NCBI GenBank assembly: GCA_958295715.1 | Contig: OY282371.1 | Span: 1-64,000 of the forward strand | DNA length: 64,000 nucleotides | Reading direction: 5' to 3' | DNA from: an uncultured Dehalococcoidia bacterium | GTDB taxonomy: Bacteria > Chloroflexota > Dehalococcoidia > Lucifugimonadales > GCA-2712585 | In this document: positions 1,255-46,203 of the stretch, piece after piece | Numbering within the stretch: the first letter of the stretch is position 1 | Layout of the letters: every line of letters begins with the position of its first letter | Translations under genes and position numbers: made by a program | Notes under the pieces: generated by a model | What the model was told of the DNA's origin: nothing | Databases searched by the model: none | The model's input: the letters and a program-made list of their open reading frames with translations, nothing else

Positions 1255-2634
1255 TTAGGGCAGGTGGCTGGTCAGTTCCTCCTTGACCGCGGCCATCTTG
1301 TCCTTCAGGGGGCCGTTGTCGTGCAGTTCAAAGGTTATGCGCTTAATGCCGTGAACGACGGTGGCGTGGTTCTTCCCTCCCAAGATGGCCCCAATCCGGG
1401 CCACGGGCAGCTTCAGACGCTTCCTCAGCAGGTACATGGCCGCCTGCCGGGCCAGCACGAACTCCCGCTTGCGCCTGGACCCCGTCATGTCGGCCTGGTC
1501 CACCTTGAAGATGCGCTGGACGGCCTTGATAACCTGGTCGGGGGAGAGGATGGACAGGTCCTCGGCGCCGTCCATCTCCTGAAGGACCCGCCGCGCCAGG
1601 GCCGGGGTGATGGGGGCCTTCTCCATCTGGGCGGTGGCCACCACGCGGTTGAACTTGCCCTCCAGATCTCTAACGCTGCCGTAGGACTGGTCGGCGACGC
1701 AGGTTAGGGACTCGTTGTCCGCGCGCACGCCCATCTCCTGGGCCTTGGCCTGCAAAATGGCGACCCGCGTCTCCAGAGGCGGGCGTTGAATGTCCGTAAT
1801 CAGGCCCCAGGAGAAGCGGGACCTGAAGCGGTCGTCCAGGTAGGGCATGGCGCTGGGGGACTTGTCGGAGGTTATGACCACCTGCCGGTTGGCGTTGTGC
1901 AGGTCGTTGAAGGTGTGGAAAAATCCCTCCAGGGTCTGCTCCTTGCCATTCATAAACTGGATGTCATCCATCAGCAGGACGTCCACGCTGCGGTACTTGC
2001 AGCGAAAGTCCTCGGTGGTCCTCTGCCTGATGGCGGTGATGAACTCGTTGGTGAATCCCTCCGAAGTGACGTATGAGTAGTTTATCCTGCGCTCGATGCA
2101 CTTGTGGGCGATGGCGTTGAGCAGGTGGGTCTTCCCCAGCCCGACGCCGGAGTAGATGAAGAGGGGGTTGTAGTAGCGGCCAAAGGAGGCCGCCACCGCC
2201 TGAGCCGCGTTGTAGGACAGGCTGTTGCAGGGGCTGACGACGAAGGACTCGAAGCTGTACCGGTGGTTGGGCACGTGTCCGTTGGAAGCGGGGGCGTCTT
2301 GGGCCGGGCGGCGTGGCGCGGCGATGGGCGGGCCGGGCTCCGCAGTCCTCTCTATAATGAAGGAAACTTCCGTTGGCGCGTTGGCGATTCTCGACGCGGC
2401 GCCCCGCACCATCTGGTACACGCGCTTTTCCAGCCACTCGCCGGCGAAGGCGTCGGGGACGCTTACGGTCAGGGTTCCATCCTCAATGGATATCCCGGCG
2501 GTGTTTTTTAGCCACGTGTCAAAGGCGGAGCGCGGCAGCTGCATTTGAAGCTGACCGAGGGCCGCTGCCCAAACCTTCTTTGCGGCGGTGACTTCCCTTC
2601 TTCTTAACCCCATACCCCTGTTGTGTGTAGCCAA
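1255..2634 (-). CDS. dnaA: Chromosomal replication initiator DnaA
   Basis: DnaA, 459 residues if started at TTG 2634 or 452 from ATG 2613. It is the AAA+ ATPase that opens oriC. The N-terminal domain is followed by a short Pro/Ala linker (about 97-122), Walker A GVGLGKTH at 163-170, Walker B LLMDDIQF at 220-227, and a domain IV DNA-binding helix-turn-helix with GGKNHATVVHG at 419-429. Neither start has an ideally spaced ribosome site: AGGGG sits almost directly against the ATG, and the TTG has none, so the N-terminus is uncertain by seven residues. Neighbours are fmt (divergent) and a repeat region, with no dnaN nearby. Identity is certain. Confidence 0.97.
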   Translation of the reverse strand: MATHNRGMGLRRREVTAAKKVWAAALGQLQMQLPRSAFDTWLKNTAGISIEDGTLTVSVPDAFAGEWLEKRVYQMVRGAASRIANAPTEVSFIIERTAEPGPPIAAPRRPAQDAPASNGHVPNHRYSFESFVVSPCNSLSYNAAQAVAASFGRYYNPLFIYSGVGLGKTHLLNAIAHKCIERRINYSYVTSEGFTNEFITAIRQRTTEDFRCKYRSVDVLLMDDIQFMNGKEQTLEGFFHTFNDLHNANRQVVITSDKSPSAMPYLDDRFRSRFSWGLITDIQRPPLETRVAILQAKAQEMGVRADNESLTCVADQSYGSVRDLEGKFNRVVATAQMEKAPITPALARRVLQEMDGAEDLSILSPDQVIKAVQRIFKVDQADMTGSRRKREFVLARQAAMYLLRKRLKLPVARIGAILGGKNHATVVHGIKRITFELHDNGPLKDKMAAVKEELTSHLP

Positions 2635-2658
2635 TAATAGGAGAGAATTACTCTATGG

Positions 2659-2687
2659 ACTTTATCAGTGAGCAGGGGTGATTTCAA
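2659..2687 (-). promoter_or_regulatory. Putative dnaA promoter
   Basis: On the minus strand TTGAAA (2687-2682) and TAAAGT (2664-2659) are separated by 17 nt, about 25-45 nt upstream of the possible dnaA starts. Sigma-70-like by spacing; the -10 is imperfect. Confidence 0.45.
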
Positions 2688-2906
2688 GGGCGAATTGAGG
2701 AAATAGTGTGCTAGACTTGTAATTTCTACGATTTAAGACTCCGCATAGAATAAATTTAATCTTTACTCTAGTACACCCGTCTTTAATGAACATAAATCGT
2801 CGTGGCCACTGTAAGGGGGCTGTCCATTTCATTATGTTTACCAGCAATAGACGCGGCATATCCACCATATCCGCCCCTTATGGTCGGTATGGCGTTATCG
2901 GGGCTG

Positions 2907-2935
2907 TTGTGCGCCTTTATTACGATTTCTATAAT
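2907..2935 (+). promoter_or_regulatory. Putative fmt promoter (near-leaderless)
   Basis: TTGTGC (2907-2912), 17-nt spacer, TATAAT (2930-2935). The expected transcription start (about 2941-2943) falls directly at the fmt ATG at 2944, so the mRNA would be leaderless or nearly so. There is no Shine-Dalgarno sequence before the ATG, which fits. Confidence 0.5.
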
Positions 2936-2943
2936 GGCTCGGT

Positions 2944-3876
2944 ATGAGGGTTGTATTTATGGGAACGCCGGCCTGCGCCGCGCCGGCGCTGAATTCGTTG
3001 CTTCGTTCGGGGGAGACGGTGGTGGGGGTCTACACCGCGCCGGACCGTCCCAAGGGAAGGGGCCGGCTTGAGGGATTCTCCCCGGTGAAGGAGCTTGCCT
3101 TGGAGCGGGGCCTGCCCCTGTTCCAGCCGTCCTCCCTGCGGAGCGCCGAGGCCCGGCGGGAGTTTTCAGCCCTGGCCCCGGACGTGGCGGTGGTGGCCGC
3201 CTACGGATACATCATACCGCCGGGGATGTTGAGGGTCCCGCCCCTCGGATTCGTGAACGTTCACCCGTCGCTGCTGCCCAGGTATCGCGGCCCCTCGCCG
3301 GTGGTGACGGCCCTGTTGGACGGCGTTGATGAGACGGGGGTCACGCTGATTTTGTTGGATGAGGGGTTGGACAGCGGCCCCATCCTGGCCCGCAGGAGCG
3401 CCCGCGTGGCCCCCGGCGAGACGGCGCCGGCCCTGACTATGCGGCTCTTTGAACTGGGCGCGGACCTGCTGGCCGGCACCCTGCCAAGGTGGAGGGACGG
3501 CCAACTCGCCGCGGAGGCCCAGGATGATTCCCTGGCCACCTTCACTCGCAAGATAGTGAAGACGGACGGCCTGGTGGACTGGACGGAGGACGCGGAGACG
3601 CTGTGCCGGCGATACAGGGCCTTCACGCCGTGGCCGGGGTTCTTCACTCAATGGCGAGGCGAGACGCTGAAGCTCCTAGACGTGTCGCCCGCGCCATCGG
3701 GGGCGGGGGGAACCCCTGGCCGGGTGGTGGACCTGGGCGATGGCGTGGGGGTGGTGGCCGGCGACGGCCGTCCGTTGGCCGTTGGAAGGCTGCAGATGGA
3801 AGGCCGCCGCGTCCAGAAGGCCGAGGAGTTCCGGCGGGGCTATCCTCAGTTTGTGGGTTCCCTGCTCCCAAGCTAG
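2944..3876 (+). CDS. fmt: Methionyl-tRNA formyltransferase
   Basis: A 310-residue Fmt that transfers the formyl group from 10-formyl-tetrahydrofolate to initiator Met-tRNA. The formyltransferase domain starts VVFMGTP; the catalytic triad is visible as Asn105 and His107 (in HPSLLPRYRG, 107-116) and Asp143 (GLDSGPI). A C-terminal OB-like tRNA-binding domain follows from about residue 205. Length is normal for the family. The start ATG gives the standard N-terminus and seems to be used without a ribosome-binding site. It is monocistronic: a repeat cluster follows. Usually fmt sits with def or priA, and neither is present here. Confidence 0.95.
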   Translation: MRVVFMGTPACAAPALNSLLRSGETVVGVYTAPDRPKGRGRLEGFSPVKELALERGLPLFQPSSLRSAEARREFSALAPDVAVVAAYGYIIPPGMLRVPPLGFVNVHPSLLPRYRGPSPVVTALLDGVDETGVTLILLDEGLDSGPILARRSARVAPGETAPALTMRLFELGADLLAGTLPRWRDGQLAAEAQDDSLATFTRKIVKTDGLVDWTEDAETLCRRYRAFTPWPGFFTQWRGETLKLLDVSPAPSGAGGTPGRVVDLGDGVGVVAGDGRPLAVGRLQMEGRRVQKAEEFRRGYPQFVGSLLPS

Positions 3877-4418: not shown

Positions 4419-4883
4419 ATGGAATGTCCGCGTTGCCGGGGCAGCAAGTTGGTTTTGCAGGACCACCTGGGCATTGAGGTCGACGCCTGTCCCCAGTGCC
4501 GCGGCATGTGGCTCGACTACCACGAGATGGACCAGTTGGAGGACACGGTGATGGACCAGGACCATCTCAAGGGCAGCATGATGTACGCGGAGCGGCCCAG
4601 CGACATCCGGTGCCCCAAGTGCGCCCAACCCATGACCACCTTCAACTATCGCGCCTACGACCTGCCCATCGACTTCTGCGACGGCGGCCACGGCTTTTGG
4701 CTGGACGCCGGGGAGGAGAAGCGGGTGCTGGAGCTCATGGAGAAGCGGCTCCGCGACCTGAAGCGCACCGCCTCGGCTGAGGGCGAATGGGTCGGCTTCC
4801 TCAAGGGTATAAGCGGCAGGAAACCGCCGCGCCCCGGCAGCTTTATGAACAGGGTCAAGGGGTGGTTTACCGGCAGGCGTTAG
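4419..4883 (+). CDS. Two-zinc-ribbon (TFIIB-type) protein
   Basis: A 154-residue protein with two treble/ribbon-type modules: CPRC and CPQC near residues 3-6 and 28-31, each followed by a GxWLD-type sequence, and CPKC near 66-69 followed by FCDGGHGFWLDAGE near 88-101. This matches the zf-TFIIB family of small bacterial proteins of unknown function. The start is chosen because AGGAGG lies 6 nt before ATG 4419; the longer open frame upstream consists of repeat sequence. The C-terminus is basic (ending in WFTGRR). Its last 19 codons are duplicated downstream at about 5020-5076. It is convergent with the uracil-DNA glycosylase gene. Confidence 0.85.
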   Translation: MECPRCRGSKLVLQDHLGIEVDACPQCRGMWLDYHEMDQLEDTVMDQDHLKGSMMYAERPSDIRCPKCAQPMTTFNYRAYDLPIDFCDGGHGFWLDAGEEKRVLELMEKRLRDLKRTASAEGEWVGFLKGISGRKPPRPGSFMNRVKGWFTGRR

Positions 4884-5018
4884 CCCTCCGATAGAAGCCC
4901 GCGCACCGTCTCAAACACGCCGTCGAACATCTCCCTGGTTAGGCGTCCCGTCTGGGCGCTCTGCTGGCTGGGGTGGTAGGACGCCACCAAGGTTTTCCCG
5001 TCGTCCAACCCGTAAACT
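4880..5018 (-). pseudogene. 3' fragment of uracil-DNA glycosylase gene (duplicate)
   Basis: Read on the minus strand, this segment encodes the C-terminal end of the family-5 glycosylase again, including a second HPSQQ motif, and ends in TAA at 4882-4880. Compared with the intact gene it has a few conservative replacements (Asn-Thr to Ser-Ala after HPSQQ, Ile to Leu near the end) among mostly silent changes. It has no N-terminal part, so it is a remnant and not a gene. Confidence 0.85.
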
Positions 5019-5019
5019 G

Positions 5020-5076
5020 CCGCGCCCCGGGAGCTTTATGAACAGGGTGAAGGGGTGGTTTACCGGCAGGCGTTAG
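5020..5076 (+). pseudogene. 3' fragment of zinc-ribbon gene (duplicate)
   Basis: The plus strand repeats the last 18 or 19 codons of the zinc-ribbon gene with only silent substitutions (same FMNRVKGWFTGRR end and TAG at 5074-5076). It lacks any upstream coding part. Confidence 0.85.
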
Positions 5077-5792
5077 CCCTCCGACAGGATCCCGCGAACC
5101 GTCTCAAACACGCCGTCGAACATCTCCCTGGTCAGGCGTCCCGTCTGGGTGTTCTGCTGGCTGGGATGGTAGGACGCCACCAAGGTTTTCCCGTCGTCCA
5201 AACTGTAAACCGCCCCGTGCCCGAACCGGGGTCTCGGCGATGGCAGGGGGAATCCCCGGTCTCTGTGCACGCCCAGATAGGCGTCAAAGGCTATCTTGCC
5301 CAGGGCCACCACCACGCTGACCCGGTCCAGGAGGTCCAACTCCCGCATGAGATACGGCTTGCAGTTGGCCAACTCCTCGCGCAGGGGCTTGTTCAGGGGC
5401 GGGGCGCACCGCAGGGCGGCGGTGATGAAGGCGTCACGGAGGGCCTGGCCGTCGTCCCGGCGGGTGGAGGTGGGCAGGGCGGCGAACCCGAACCGGTGGA
5501 GGGCGCCGTAGAGCCAGTCGCCGCTGCGGTCTCCCGTAAACATGCGCCCCGTGCGGTTGCCGCCGTGAGCCGCCGGAGCTAAGCCCAGGATAAGTACCCG
5601 GGCGCCGGGGTCTCCAAAGGCCGGCAGGGGCCTTCCCCAGTAGTCCCAGCCGGCGTACATTGGCCGCTTCTTCAGCGCGACGCCCTCCCGGTGGGCCACC
5701 AGCCGGGGGCACTTGGCGCAGGCGATGACGGTCTGCTGGAGCCTCTCCAATTTGGTCACCGGTTCCTCAGCTTGCGGGTGGAAACGCGGCAT
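5073..5792 (-). CDS. Family 5 uracil-DNA glycosylase (UDGb type)
   Basis: A 239-residue Fe-S uracil-DNA glycosylase that excises uracil and other deaminated bases from DNA. Four cysteines (25, 28, 129, 144) have the spacing of the Fe4S4 ligands of family 4/5 enzymes. Motif A is GLAPAAHGGNRTGR at 70-83; Ala-Pro-Ala-Ala with no acidic residue in this position is characteristic of family 5, and motif B is HPSQQNT at 209-215. It is the last gene of a minus-strand run: transporter, dehydrogenase, glycosylase, with 8 nt separating it from the dehydrogenase. Its 3' end is involved in the 193-bp tandem duplication but the gene itself is intact. Confidence 0.9.
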   Translation of the reverse strand: MPRFHPQAEEPVTKLERLQQTVIACAKCPRLVAHREGVALKKRPMYAGWDYWGRPLPAFGDPGARVLILGLAPAAHGGNRTGRMFTGDRSGDWLYGALHRFGFAALPTSTRRDDGQALRDAFITAALRCAPPLNKPLREELANCKPYLMRELDLLDRVSVVVALGKIAFDAYLGVHRDRGFPLPSPRPRFGHGAVYSLDDGKTLVASYHPSQQNTQTGRLTREMFDGVFETVRGILSEG

Positions 5793-8152: not shown

Positions 8153-8389
8153 CTACAGGAACTTGATGGCGGCAATCATGGCGCCGACCAGCAGAGGAGC
8201 GCCTATCGCCAACATGCGGTTCATGGTTGTGAAGCTACCCTGCAACCTGGCGATGTCTTCCTTGAAAACGCCTTGCATCTTGGCCATGTTTTCCTCAAAG
8301 CTACCCTGCAACCTGGCTATGTCTTCCTTGGTGGCGAGGTGAGGTATCACCGCTTCGATTCTGCTGACACGTTCCTCAAGGCTGACCAT
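8153..8389 (-). CDS. Small tail-anchored coiled-coil protein, three 11-residue repeats
   Basis: A 78-residue protein with a head ending in PHLATKED, then three hendecads of the pattern AxxQGxFxExx, and a hydrophobic C-terminal helix of about 20 residues (from MNRMLAIGAP) ending in KFL. It is a short paralog of the 155-residue protein at 45511-45978: head and tail are nearly identical and the length difference is exactly 7 x 11. Hendecads favour a right-handed or nearly straight coiled coil, and the C-terminal helix suggests tail anchoring in the membrane. The ATKED-plus-TM plan faintly recalls DUF1640-type proteins, but I cannot confirm it. Ribosome site AAGGAG precedes ATG 8389. Function unknown. 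Confidence 0.75.
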   Translation of the reverse strand: MVSLEERVSRIEAVIPHLATKEDIARLQGSFEENMAKMQGVFKEDIARLQGSFTTMNRMLAIGAPLLVGAMIAAIKFL

Positions 8390-8421
8390 GCTAACTCCTT
8401 GTTACCAATCCGTGTAACGTC

Positions 8422-8451
8422 ATATTACCAGAAAGCCGTGAGGCGATTCAA
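8422..8451 (-). promoter_or_regulatory. Promoter of short coiled-coil gene
   Basis: Minus strand TTGAAT (8451-8446), 18-nt spacer, TAATAT (8427-8422) with an upstream TGG. The same promoter, with the same spacing, precedes the 155-residue paralog at 46011-46040, so it is conserved with the gene. Confidence 0.65.
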
Positions 8452-8540
8452 CGGCGGTAAGGAAGATGGATTCCCGCCTGCGCGGGAATGACGGAGGGGG
8501 GGAGGCGGGAATGACGAGACATGTAGGCCGCGTGGGGCGG

Positions 8541-45321: not shown

Positions 45322-45510
45322 AATCGTTGCGTCAAACCCTAGCGCTCTTGGGCTTGGGGGGCAAGGGAGGGGGAGGACGCCCGCGTGGGATGCGGCTACG
45401 GGTCGGCCCGGAGTTCGGGGCGTTGGCTTTGGGATGTAGGGTTGCCGGGTTCCCGCCTGCGCGAGAATGACGAAAGGGGGGCGCGAGAATGACGGGTCAG
45501 GAGAGGGCGG

Positions 45511-45978
45511 CTATAGGAACTTGATGGCGGCTATCATGGCGCCGACCAGCAGAGGAGCGCCTATGGCCAACATGCGGTTCATGGTTGCGAAGCTGCCCTT
45601 TAACCCAGCGATTTCTTCCATGAATTTGCCTTGCGATCTGGCGTTGTCTTCCTTGAATTCACCCCGCGATCTGGCGTTGTCTTCCTTGAAGTCGCCTCGC
45701 ATCTTGGCCATGTCTTCCTTGAATTCGCCCCGCAATCTGGCGATGTCTTCCTTGAATTCGCCCCGCATCTTGGCCATGTTTTCCTCGAAGCTGCCCTGTA
45801 TCTTGGCCATGTTTTCCTCAAAGCTGCCCTGCATCTTGGCCATGTTTTCCTCAAGGCTGCCCCGCATCTGGGCCATGTTTTCCTCAAGGCTGCCCTGCAA
45901 CCTCGCCATGTCTTCCTTGGTGGCCAGGTGAGGTATTACCGCTTCCAGTCTGCCGACCCGTTCCTCAAGGGTGACCAT
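45511..45978 (-). CDS. Tail-anchored coiled-coil protein, ten 11-residue repeats
   Basis: A 155-residue paralog of the 78-residue protein at 8153-8389. After a 24-residue head ending LATKED come ten consecutive hendecads of the form MARLQGSLEEN / MAKMRGEFKED, then the same hydrophobic tail (MNRMLAIGAP to KFL). The unit is 33 bp in the DNA, and codons vary between units, so this is not a simple recent slippage product. Seven repeats more than the short form. The hendecad phase predicts a long parallel coiled coil standing off a membrane anchor. GAGGAG precedes ATG 45978 and the promoter is conserved with the paralog. Function unknown. Confidence 0.75.
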   Translation of the reverse strand: MVTLEERVGRLEAVIPHLATKEDMARLQGSLEENMAQMRGSLEENMAKMQGSFEENMAKIQGSFEENMAKMRGEFKEDIARLRGEFKEDMAKMRGDFKEDNARSRGEFKEDNARSQGKFMEEIAGLKGSFATMNRMLAIGAPLLVGAMIAAIKFL

Positions 45979-46010
45979 GCTAACTCCTCGCTGCCAGTCC
46001 GTGTAACGTC

Positions 46011-46040
46011 ATATTACCAGAAAGCCGCGGGGCGATTCAA
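46011..46040 (-). promoter_or_regulatory. Promoter of long coiled-coil gene
   Basis: Minus strand TTGAAT (46040-46035), 18-nt spacer, TAATAT (46016-46011), identical in hexamers and spacing to the promoter of the short paralog at 8422-8451. Confidence 0.65.
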
Positions 46041-46203
46041 CGGCGGGGGCTGGCTAGAGGGGAAAGATGGATTCCCGCCTGCGCGGGAATGACGGAACGG
46101 AGAGGAGTGGTGGGAGTGACGGGATGCGTTCTCCCCCCGGCGCGTGGAAGGGGGGCTGAGGTGGTAGAATCTATGCAGACCATCGGAAAGGCGGAGGGGC
46201 CGC

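Follow-up and report, generated by a model that had tools for sequence, protein, structure and literature searches.

Six copies of a predicted tail-anchored coiled-coil gene with one to ten 11-residue units in a Dehalococcoidia genome

The window analysed here, the first 64,000 nucleotides of contig C1 (2,349,492 bases) of an uncultured Dehalococcoidia bacterium, contains a small gene built largely of diverged 33-bp repeats, together with a shorter paralog. What kind of gene is this, how were its repeats gained, and does their number matter to the cell? The initial annotation assigned the long form to positions 45449-46090, a span that encloses the gene but is too wide, reaching from one flanking palindrome to the other. 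The features of the two loci are as follows.

45511..45978, minus strand: long-form gene (n10), an open reading frame of 155 aa, stop codon included; family membership by homology
45979..46046, minus strand: 68-bp leader of the long form, common to all six copies of the family
45910..45978, minus strand: head and neck, residues 1-23 (MVTLEERVGRLEAVIPHLATKED)
45778..45909, minus strand: units 1-4, S.EEN type
45613..45777, minus strand: units 5-9, KED/MEE type, with 5-6 and 7-8 forming a 66-bp block duplication
45580..45612, minus strand: unit 10, the last unit, which groups with the last units of the five other copies (support 1.000)
45514..45579, minus strand: predicted C-terminal membrane anchor, residues 134-155
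45450..45472, plus strand: flanking palindromic interspersed repeat, one mismatch to the common form
46072..46094, plus strand: flanking palindromic interspersed repeat, exact common form
8153..8389, minus strand: short paralog (n3w), 78 aa, three units
8390..8457, minus strand: 68-bp leader before the short paralog, the same as that of the long form

The count of ten 33-bp units given in the initial annotation is confirmed: in the assembled sequence, residues 24-133 consist entirely of ten 11-residue units. Compared with itself at a lag of 33 bases, the DNA has an identity of 0.795, whereas 5000 codon shuffles averaged 0.306 and never exceeded 0.404, and lags of 32 and 34 give 0.34 and 0.30; the array was also found independently by Tandem Repeats Finder. 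Its division into two blocks of distinct subtypes likewise holds, with units 1-4 ending in EEN, units 5-8 in KED and unit 9 in MEE, followed by unit 10, which ends in ATM. Per 33 bases, units 1-4 differ among themselves at a mean of 4.2 positions and units 5-9 at 6.6, whereas comparisons across the two groups give 11.4; individual pairs of units in the array range from 2 to 21 mismatches.

The array is not star-like, in line with the blockwise growth that the initial annotation had proposed. Units are ordered by similarity, adjacent ones differing by 6.8 bases on average compared with 10.6 in shuffled order (p = 0.0009, 20000 shuffles). Block duplication is evident in one clear case, units 5-6 versus 7-8 (5/66 bases different), the next-best non-overlapping pair of dimers being units 1-2 and 3-4 (9/66). 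In a tree of all 28 units from the six genes of the family, n10 units 6, 8 and 9 group together (support 0.987), and, apart from that of the last units, many other branches have the low support to be expected of sequences 33 bases long. Over their last five codons the units separate cleanly by block, and over the first five they do not, so that the exchange points probably lie inside units. Within the ten-unit array, variation is almost equal across the three codon positions (150, 142 and 183), which suggests that most unit positions are loosely constrained.

Periodicity, hydropathy and structure modelling together present the array as a predicted hendecad coiled-coil stalk that links a head of 23 residues to a membrane anchor at the C-terminus. 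The hydrophobic period of the stalk is 3.68, that is, 11/3, with a power of 70.6 at 11/3 compared with 2.1 at 3.5, as befits a hendecad rather than a heptad-like repeat. Hydropathy peaks at 2.12 over residues 137-155, the best window of the protein, and does not exceed 0.45 in windows starting in residues 1-100. An AlphaFold2 model, computed from an alignment of only six near-identical rows and for one chain, so that it is silent on oligomers, consists of one helix spanning residues 21-154 (mean pLDDT 82.5, pTM 0.36). With Foldseek, this model matched 0 entries of the PDB, which is unsurprising for one long helix, and a phmmer search of the PDB returned nothing under E 0.1 (best E 0.13), that is, no solved relative above chance. 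Given that there is no signal sequence and that the hydrophobic helix sits at the extreme C-terminus, the N-terminus is probably cytoplasmic. At 1.5 angstrom per residue, the five stalk lengths of the family would correspond to a computed rise of 1.6, 4.9, 6.6, 11.5 and 16.5 nm. One feature would count against a stalk: units 8 and 9 (NARSRGEFKED and NARSQGKFMEE) carry polar N and S at two predicted core positions that are hydrophobic in the others.

Only one paralog had been recognised previously; four further copies outside the window, as well as the tail-anchored coiled-coil architecture, had been missed. When the long protein was compared with its own genome, 11 matching segments were obtained, representing six close loci and one distant locus. 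The six copies are located on contig C1 as follows.

45511-45978: 10 units
8153-8389: 3 units (n3w)
2295814-2295996: 1 unit
2305572-2305808: 3 units
2318403-2318672: 4 units
2342109-2342477: 7 units

The family keeps the head, the last unit and the anchor constant, whereas the number of 11-residue units varies (1, 3, 3, 4, 7 and 10). The 68-bp leader has full-length matches at exactly six places in the genome, each directly before a family gene; its only two other matches are 20-22 bases long, with E 0.5 and 0.9. The ribosome-binding site and the start are conserved in all six copies (the leader of the long form holds a ribosome-binding-site-like AAGGAG/GAGGAG), and homology among the copies fades ~15-20 bases past the stop. 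A TTGAAT-N18-TAATAT stretch in the leader, considered as a promoter, was rejected: it is absent from the consensus-scan list and is a weak match at best. In the anchor (22 codons plus stop), all 15 copy pairs show zero non-synonymous and 0-6 synonymous changes; with no amino-acid change in the anchor across copies, the protein is under selection. The two three-unit copies encode identical proteins and differ by 4 synonymous changes in the head. No conserved gene partner was found at the family copies examined. The kind of gene is known, a real, selected, length-variable coding array; what is unusual is that a single genome holds a length series of six copies whose ends stay constant.

The age and direction of the expansion can be gauged by comparing units with copies. 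Outside the units, the 206 bases of the long copy depart from those of the other five at 14-18 positions (7-9%), and the closest unit pairs in the long array differ at 2/33 bases (6%), with others differing far more. Given this similar divergence, the expansion is about as old as the spread of the copies. The initial annotation had called it old or selected rather than fresh slippage; it is indeed not the product of fresh slippage, but 'old' holds only in the relative sense of roughly the age of the copy spread. The tree of the unit-free parts, with support of only 0.785-0.864, does not fix the order of the copies. Of the two roles offered for the short paralog, a deletion or a founder form, 'founder' fits better, although unit distances alone do not fix the direction. 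Its three units (IARLQGSFEEN, MAKMQGVFKED and IARLQGSFTTM) represent an adjacent EEN-KED pair and the last unit, which are present in n3w, n3b, n4 and n7; because the long array shows the same order with the first two types multiplied, EEN-KED-last was probably the founder order.

We read the family, with a probability of about 0.6, as dispersed tail-anchored stalks of graded length that spread as a cassette, gained units in frame and act as scaffolds or spacers. On sequence and prediction, the protein comprises the 23-residue head, the hendecad coiled coil and a transmembrane helix. The pattern of the units points to gain and loss of complete 33-bp units, one at a time and in one clear case two together (66 bp), presumably by unequal recombination or slippage; such whole steps would keep both the reading frame and the coiled-coil register. 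The stalk would have lengthened in frame at about the time when the copies spread, leader and gene moving together as a cassette into intergenic sites near the contig ends, with a gene-free counterpart seen in relatives for the site of the long copy. The likely work is mechanical: oligomeric cytoplasmic stalks would hold the same head ~1.6 to 16.5 nm from the cytoplasmic membrane, in a putative role as membrane scaffold or spacer, with orientation, oligomeric state and partner all presumed.

The gene-free site is found in all three relatives compared (G001, G002 and G004), in which aroF, chorismate mutase, trpA, CAAX protease and rarA occur in the same order as here, the gene names at this site being a reading of translations. 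In the stretches examined in these genomes, a hendecad query at E 1e-3 detected no family gene between CAAX protease and rarA; the two open reading frames start 87 bases apart in G002, and the gap here is 882 bases. The long copy is thus either an insertion in this lineage or was lost in three relatives, insertion being the simpler account. At the site of the short paralog, the neighbouring gene chosen for comparison, which also has matches in G001 and G004, is not orthologous in G002. The site of the one-unit copy lies between phoR and pstS both here and in G002, and was rejected as an empty site because G002 has a different small gene there. This gene (L070, about 2300-2800; G002:C1 near 1403500) reads like a retropepsin-type protease, with a DTGAAYTTLP stretch, so the phoR-pstS site takes different small genes in the two genomes.

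The strongest rival, which we consider unlikely, is a selfish or neutral cassette, a mobile or recombination-spread small gene whose unit number drifts as in a minisatellite, with no benefit from length. The distribution of the family speaks for it. The six-copy burst is lineage-specific: the close family is absent from all six other genomes of the same taxonomic family that were searched, same-genus ones included (0/6), which argues that no essential function depends on it and so also weighs against our preferred reading. Among 60 genomes searched, its own included, four had a match, the three others being distant (best E 3.5e-6 to 9.8e-5). A 12-row profile matched 11/118 genomes of the class, its own included, so that occurrence in the class is patchy (10/117 other genomes). 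A search of the named collection found four loci, three in uncultured Dehalococcoidia and one in a Candidatus Binatia genome. The loose constraint on unit interiors also fits drift.

The copies, moreover, adjoin a 23-bp palindromic repeat (TTCCCGCCTGCGCGGGAATGACG) that has 771 copies in this genome at up to 2 mismatches; the two same-genus genomes have 24 and 0, and four more genomes of the same family have 0, so that the palindrome represents a lineage-specific explosion. It lies 10-65 bases from the low-coordinate edge in all six family copies and within 123 bases on the high-coordinate side in five of the six, the one-unit copy having none within 9 kb there (up to 3 mismatches). With 771 palindromes in the genome, including 15 sites in the window (for example, 857-879, 8471-8493 and 46072-46094), we regard this association as suggestive only. 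What speaks against a selfish or neutral cassette is the clear purifying selection on anchor and head in all copies and the fact that every array is in frame; nor was a transposase or target duplication noticed at the copies in an unsystematic look.

Returning to the stalk reading, a bolder version of it holds that one head and one anchor, carried by cassettes near the replication origin, come in five stalk lengths with length rather than sequence selected; we think this quite unlikely. C1 begins beside dnaA (window 1255-2634), and the distance from each of the six copies to the nearer contig end is 7 to 54 kb. If C1 is a circle opened beside dnaA, they fall within one 99-kb arc, and none of one million random draws was as tight. 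No overlap was found between the contig ends and no decisive origin position emerged from GC skew; thrB and dnaA are ~565 kb apart in G002, so this pair of genes does not prove that the ends meet. In Dehalococcoides genomes, two high plasticity regions near the origin have been described (PMC2764846). Were the length series real, the cell could build graded membrane spacers or mixed bundles from one protein design. Length change by whole coiled-coil turns lets evolution tune physical distance directly, and one genome with six versions of 1 to 10 units between constant ends is a natural experiment in stalk length. Under selection for length, the set could teach how membrane spacers are adjusted in a bacterium; otherwise it would exemplify cleanly how a small coding minisatellite spreads through intergenic DNA.

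It is very unlikely that these proteins are true CCDC90/DUF1640-type scaffolds (Pfam PF07798) that have lost or shortened the head and serve a membrane transport or metabolic complex. Members of PF07798 include MCUR1, CCDC90B, yeast Put6/Put7 and prokaryotic homologues. The resemblance lies in the layout, a coiled-coil stalk followed by a C-terminal transmembrane anchor, which hydropathy, periodicity and the helix model all point to here, along with an ATKED neck and the 11-residue period. PF07798 is among the best Pfam matches, and PDB 6h9l, which we take to be a prokaryotic CCDC90 relative, is a weak match in second row, with tandem ATKEDIEALR-like units. However, the scores (21.4 bits for the long form and 19.4 for the seven-unit copy) remain below the curated cut-off of 33.5, as does the best score in the whole genome (24.1 bits, at another place). 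Of the 175 positions of the profile, the first to be matched is 35 in the long form and 42 in the seven-unit copy, leaving the N-terminal head region unmatched, and other coiled-coil families score alike in the long form (PF01442, 25.6; PF16331, 21.5). With scores below the cut-off and generic families performing equally, we do not file the protein in PF07798, from which it also differs in having six length variants in one genome. Put6 and Put7 are described as DUF1640 proteins that combine a coiled coil with a transmembrane domain (PMC7519068). No NCBIfam model matched over its cut-off.

In its organisation, the family resembles the Bdr proteins of Borrelia, which have an 11-residue unit and a C-terminal anchor and are encoded by multi-copy paralogous genes with imperfect tandem repeats in variable number, as in the six copies with 1-10 units here. 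Bdr genes, unlike these, are plasmid and prophage borne and belong to a spirochaete; the likeness is one of layout taken from descriptions, and common descent is not claimed. One account of bdr genes gives imperfect direct repeats, an unknown function and, for bdrT, ~9 versus 6 repeats in two strains (PMC3303823). Two phage protein families of unknown function, PHROG 9415 (E 6.9e-10) and 736 (E 2.5e-4), match the long form in its head and first units. A phage or plasmid origin was rejected: with the four-unit protein as query, tblastn matched none of 50,697 phage records and none of 72,556 plasmid records, searches in which relatives may be masked by the low-complexity filter of BLAST. Of 106 stretches in viral contigs that fitted a peptide pattern, none was confirmed. 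Among the publications searched, none was recognised as treating this gene family.

It is extremely improbable that the array matters as a DNA-level element, for example as a non-coding repeat or an antisense ORF, and that selection is not on the protein: with 33 divisible by 3, other frames are open, including ORFs of 153-154 aa on the opposite strand, but the anchor changes are synonymous in this very frame, whose ribosome-binding site and start are kept in all copies and whose product has hydrophobic periodicity. An assembly error in unit number deserves almost no credence, given that units differing at 2 to 21 of 33 bases let reads be placed and that the other five copies show real gene-length variation.

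More distant homologues in the same class (for example, L020, L024 and L026) share the EERVSRLEG...HLATK head, a stalk of the 11-residue type and varying length and the C-terminal anchor, and also form paralogue sets of different lengths. They are distant in sequence, nine aligned rows from beyond the six-copy family sharing 30-44% identity with the short form, and, in G011, tandem rather than dispersed as here. In G011, a distant relative (L026, C1 near 661000; L020, C1 near 1998000), four tandem homologues differ in stalk length and a separate 244-residue open frame has a long, internally repeated stalk, which suggests that change of stalk length recurs in the class. In the genome studied here, two further diverged sets of small anchored proteins with a TKAD neck (L016, C1:1373100-1373906, and C1:2052228-2052636) form tandem arrays of three and two genes of differing lengths.

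Gene order near dnaA has also changed in this genome. The gene for ribosomal protein L25, a homologue of ORF 2944-3876 and dnaA (region 1255-3876 of the window) are close neighbours in 3/3 relatives; here L25 (C1:2306135-2306824; L058:16136-16825) is near the other contig end, beside a family copy and palindromes, so gene order is broken there. The window further contains a 193-bp tandem duplication at 4821-5214, in two copies with 93% matches.
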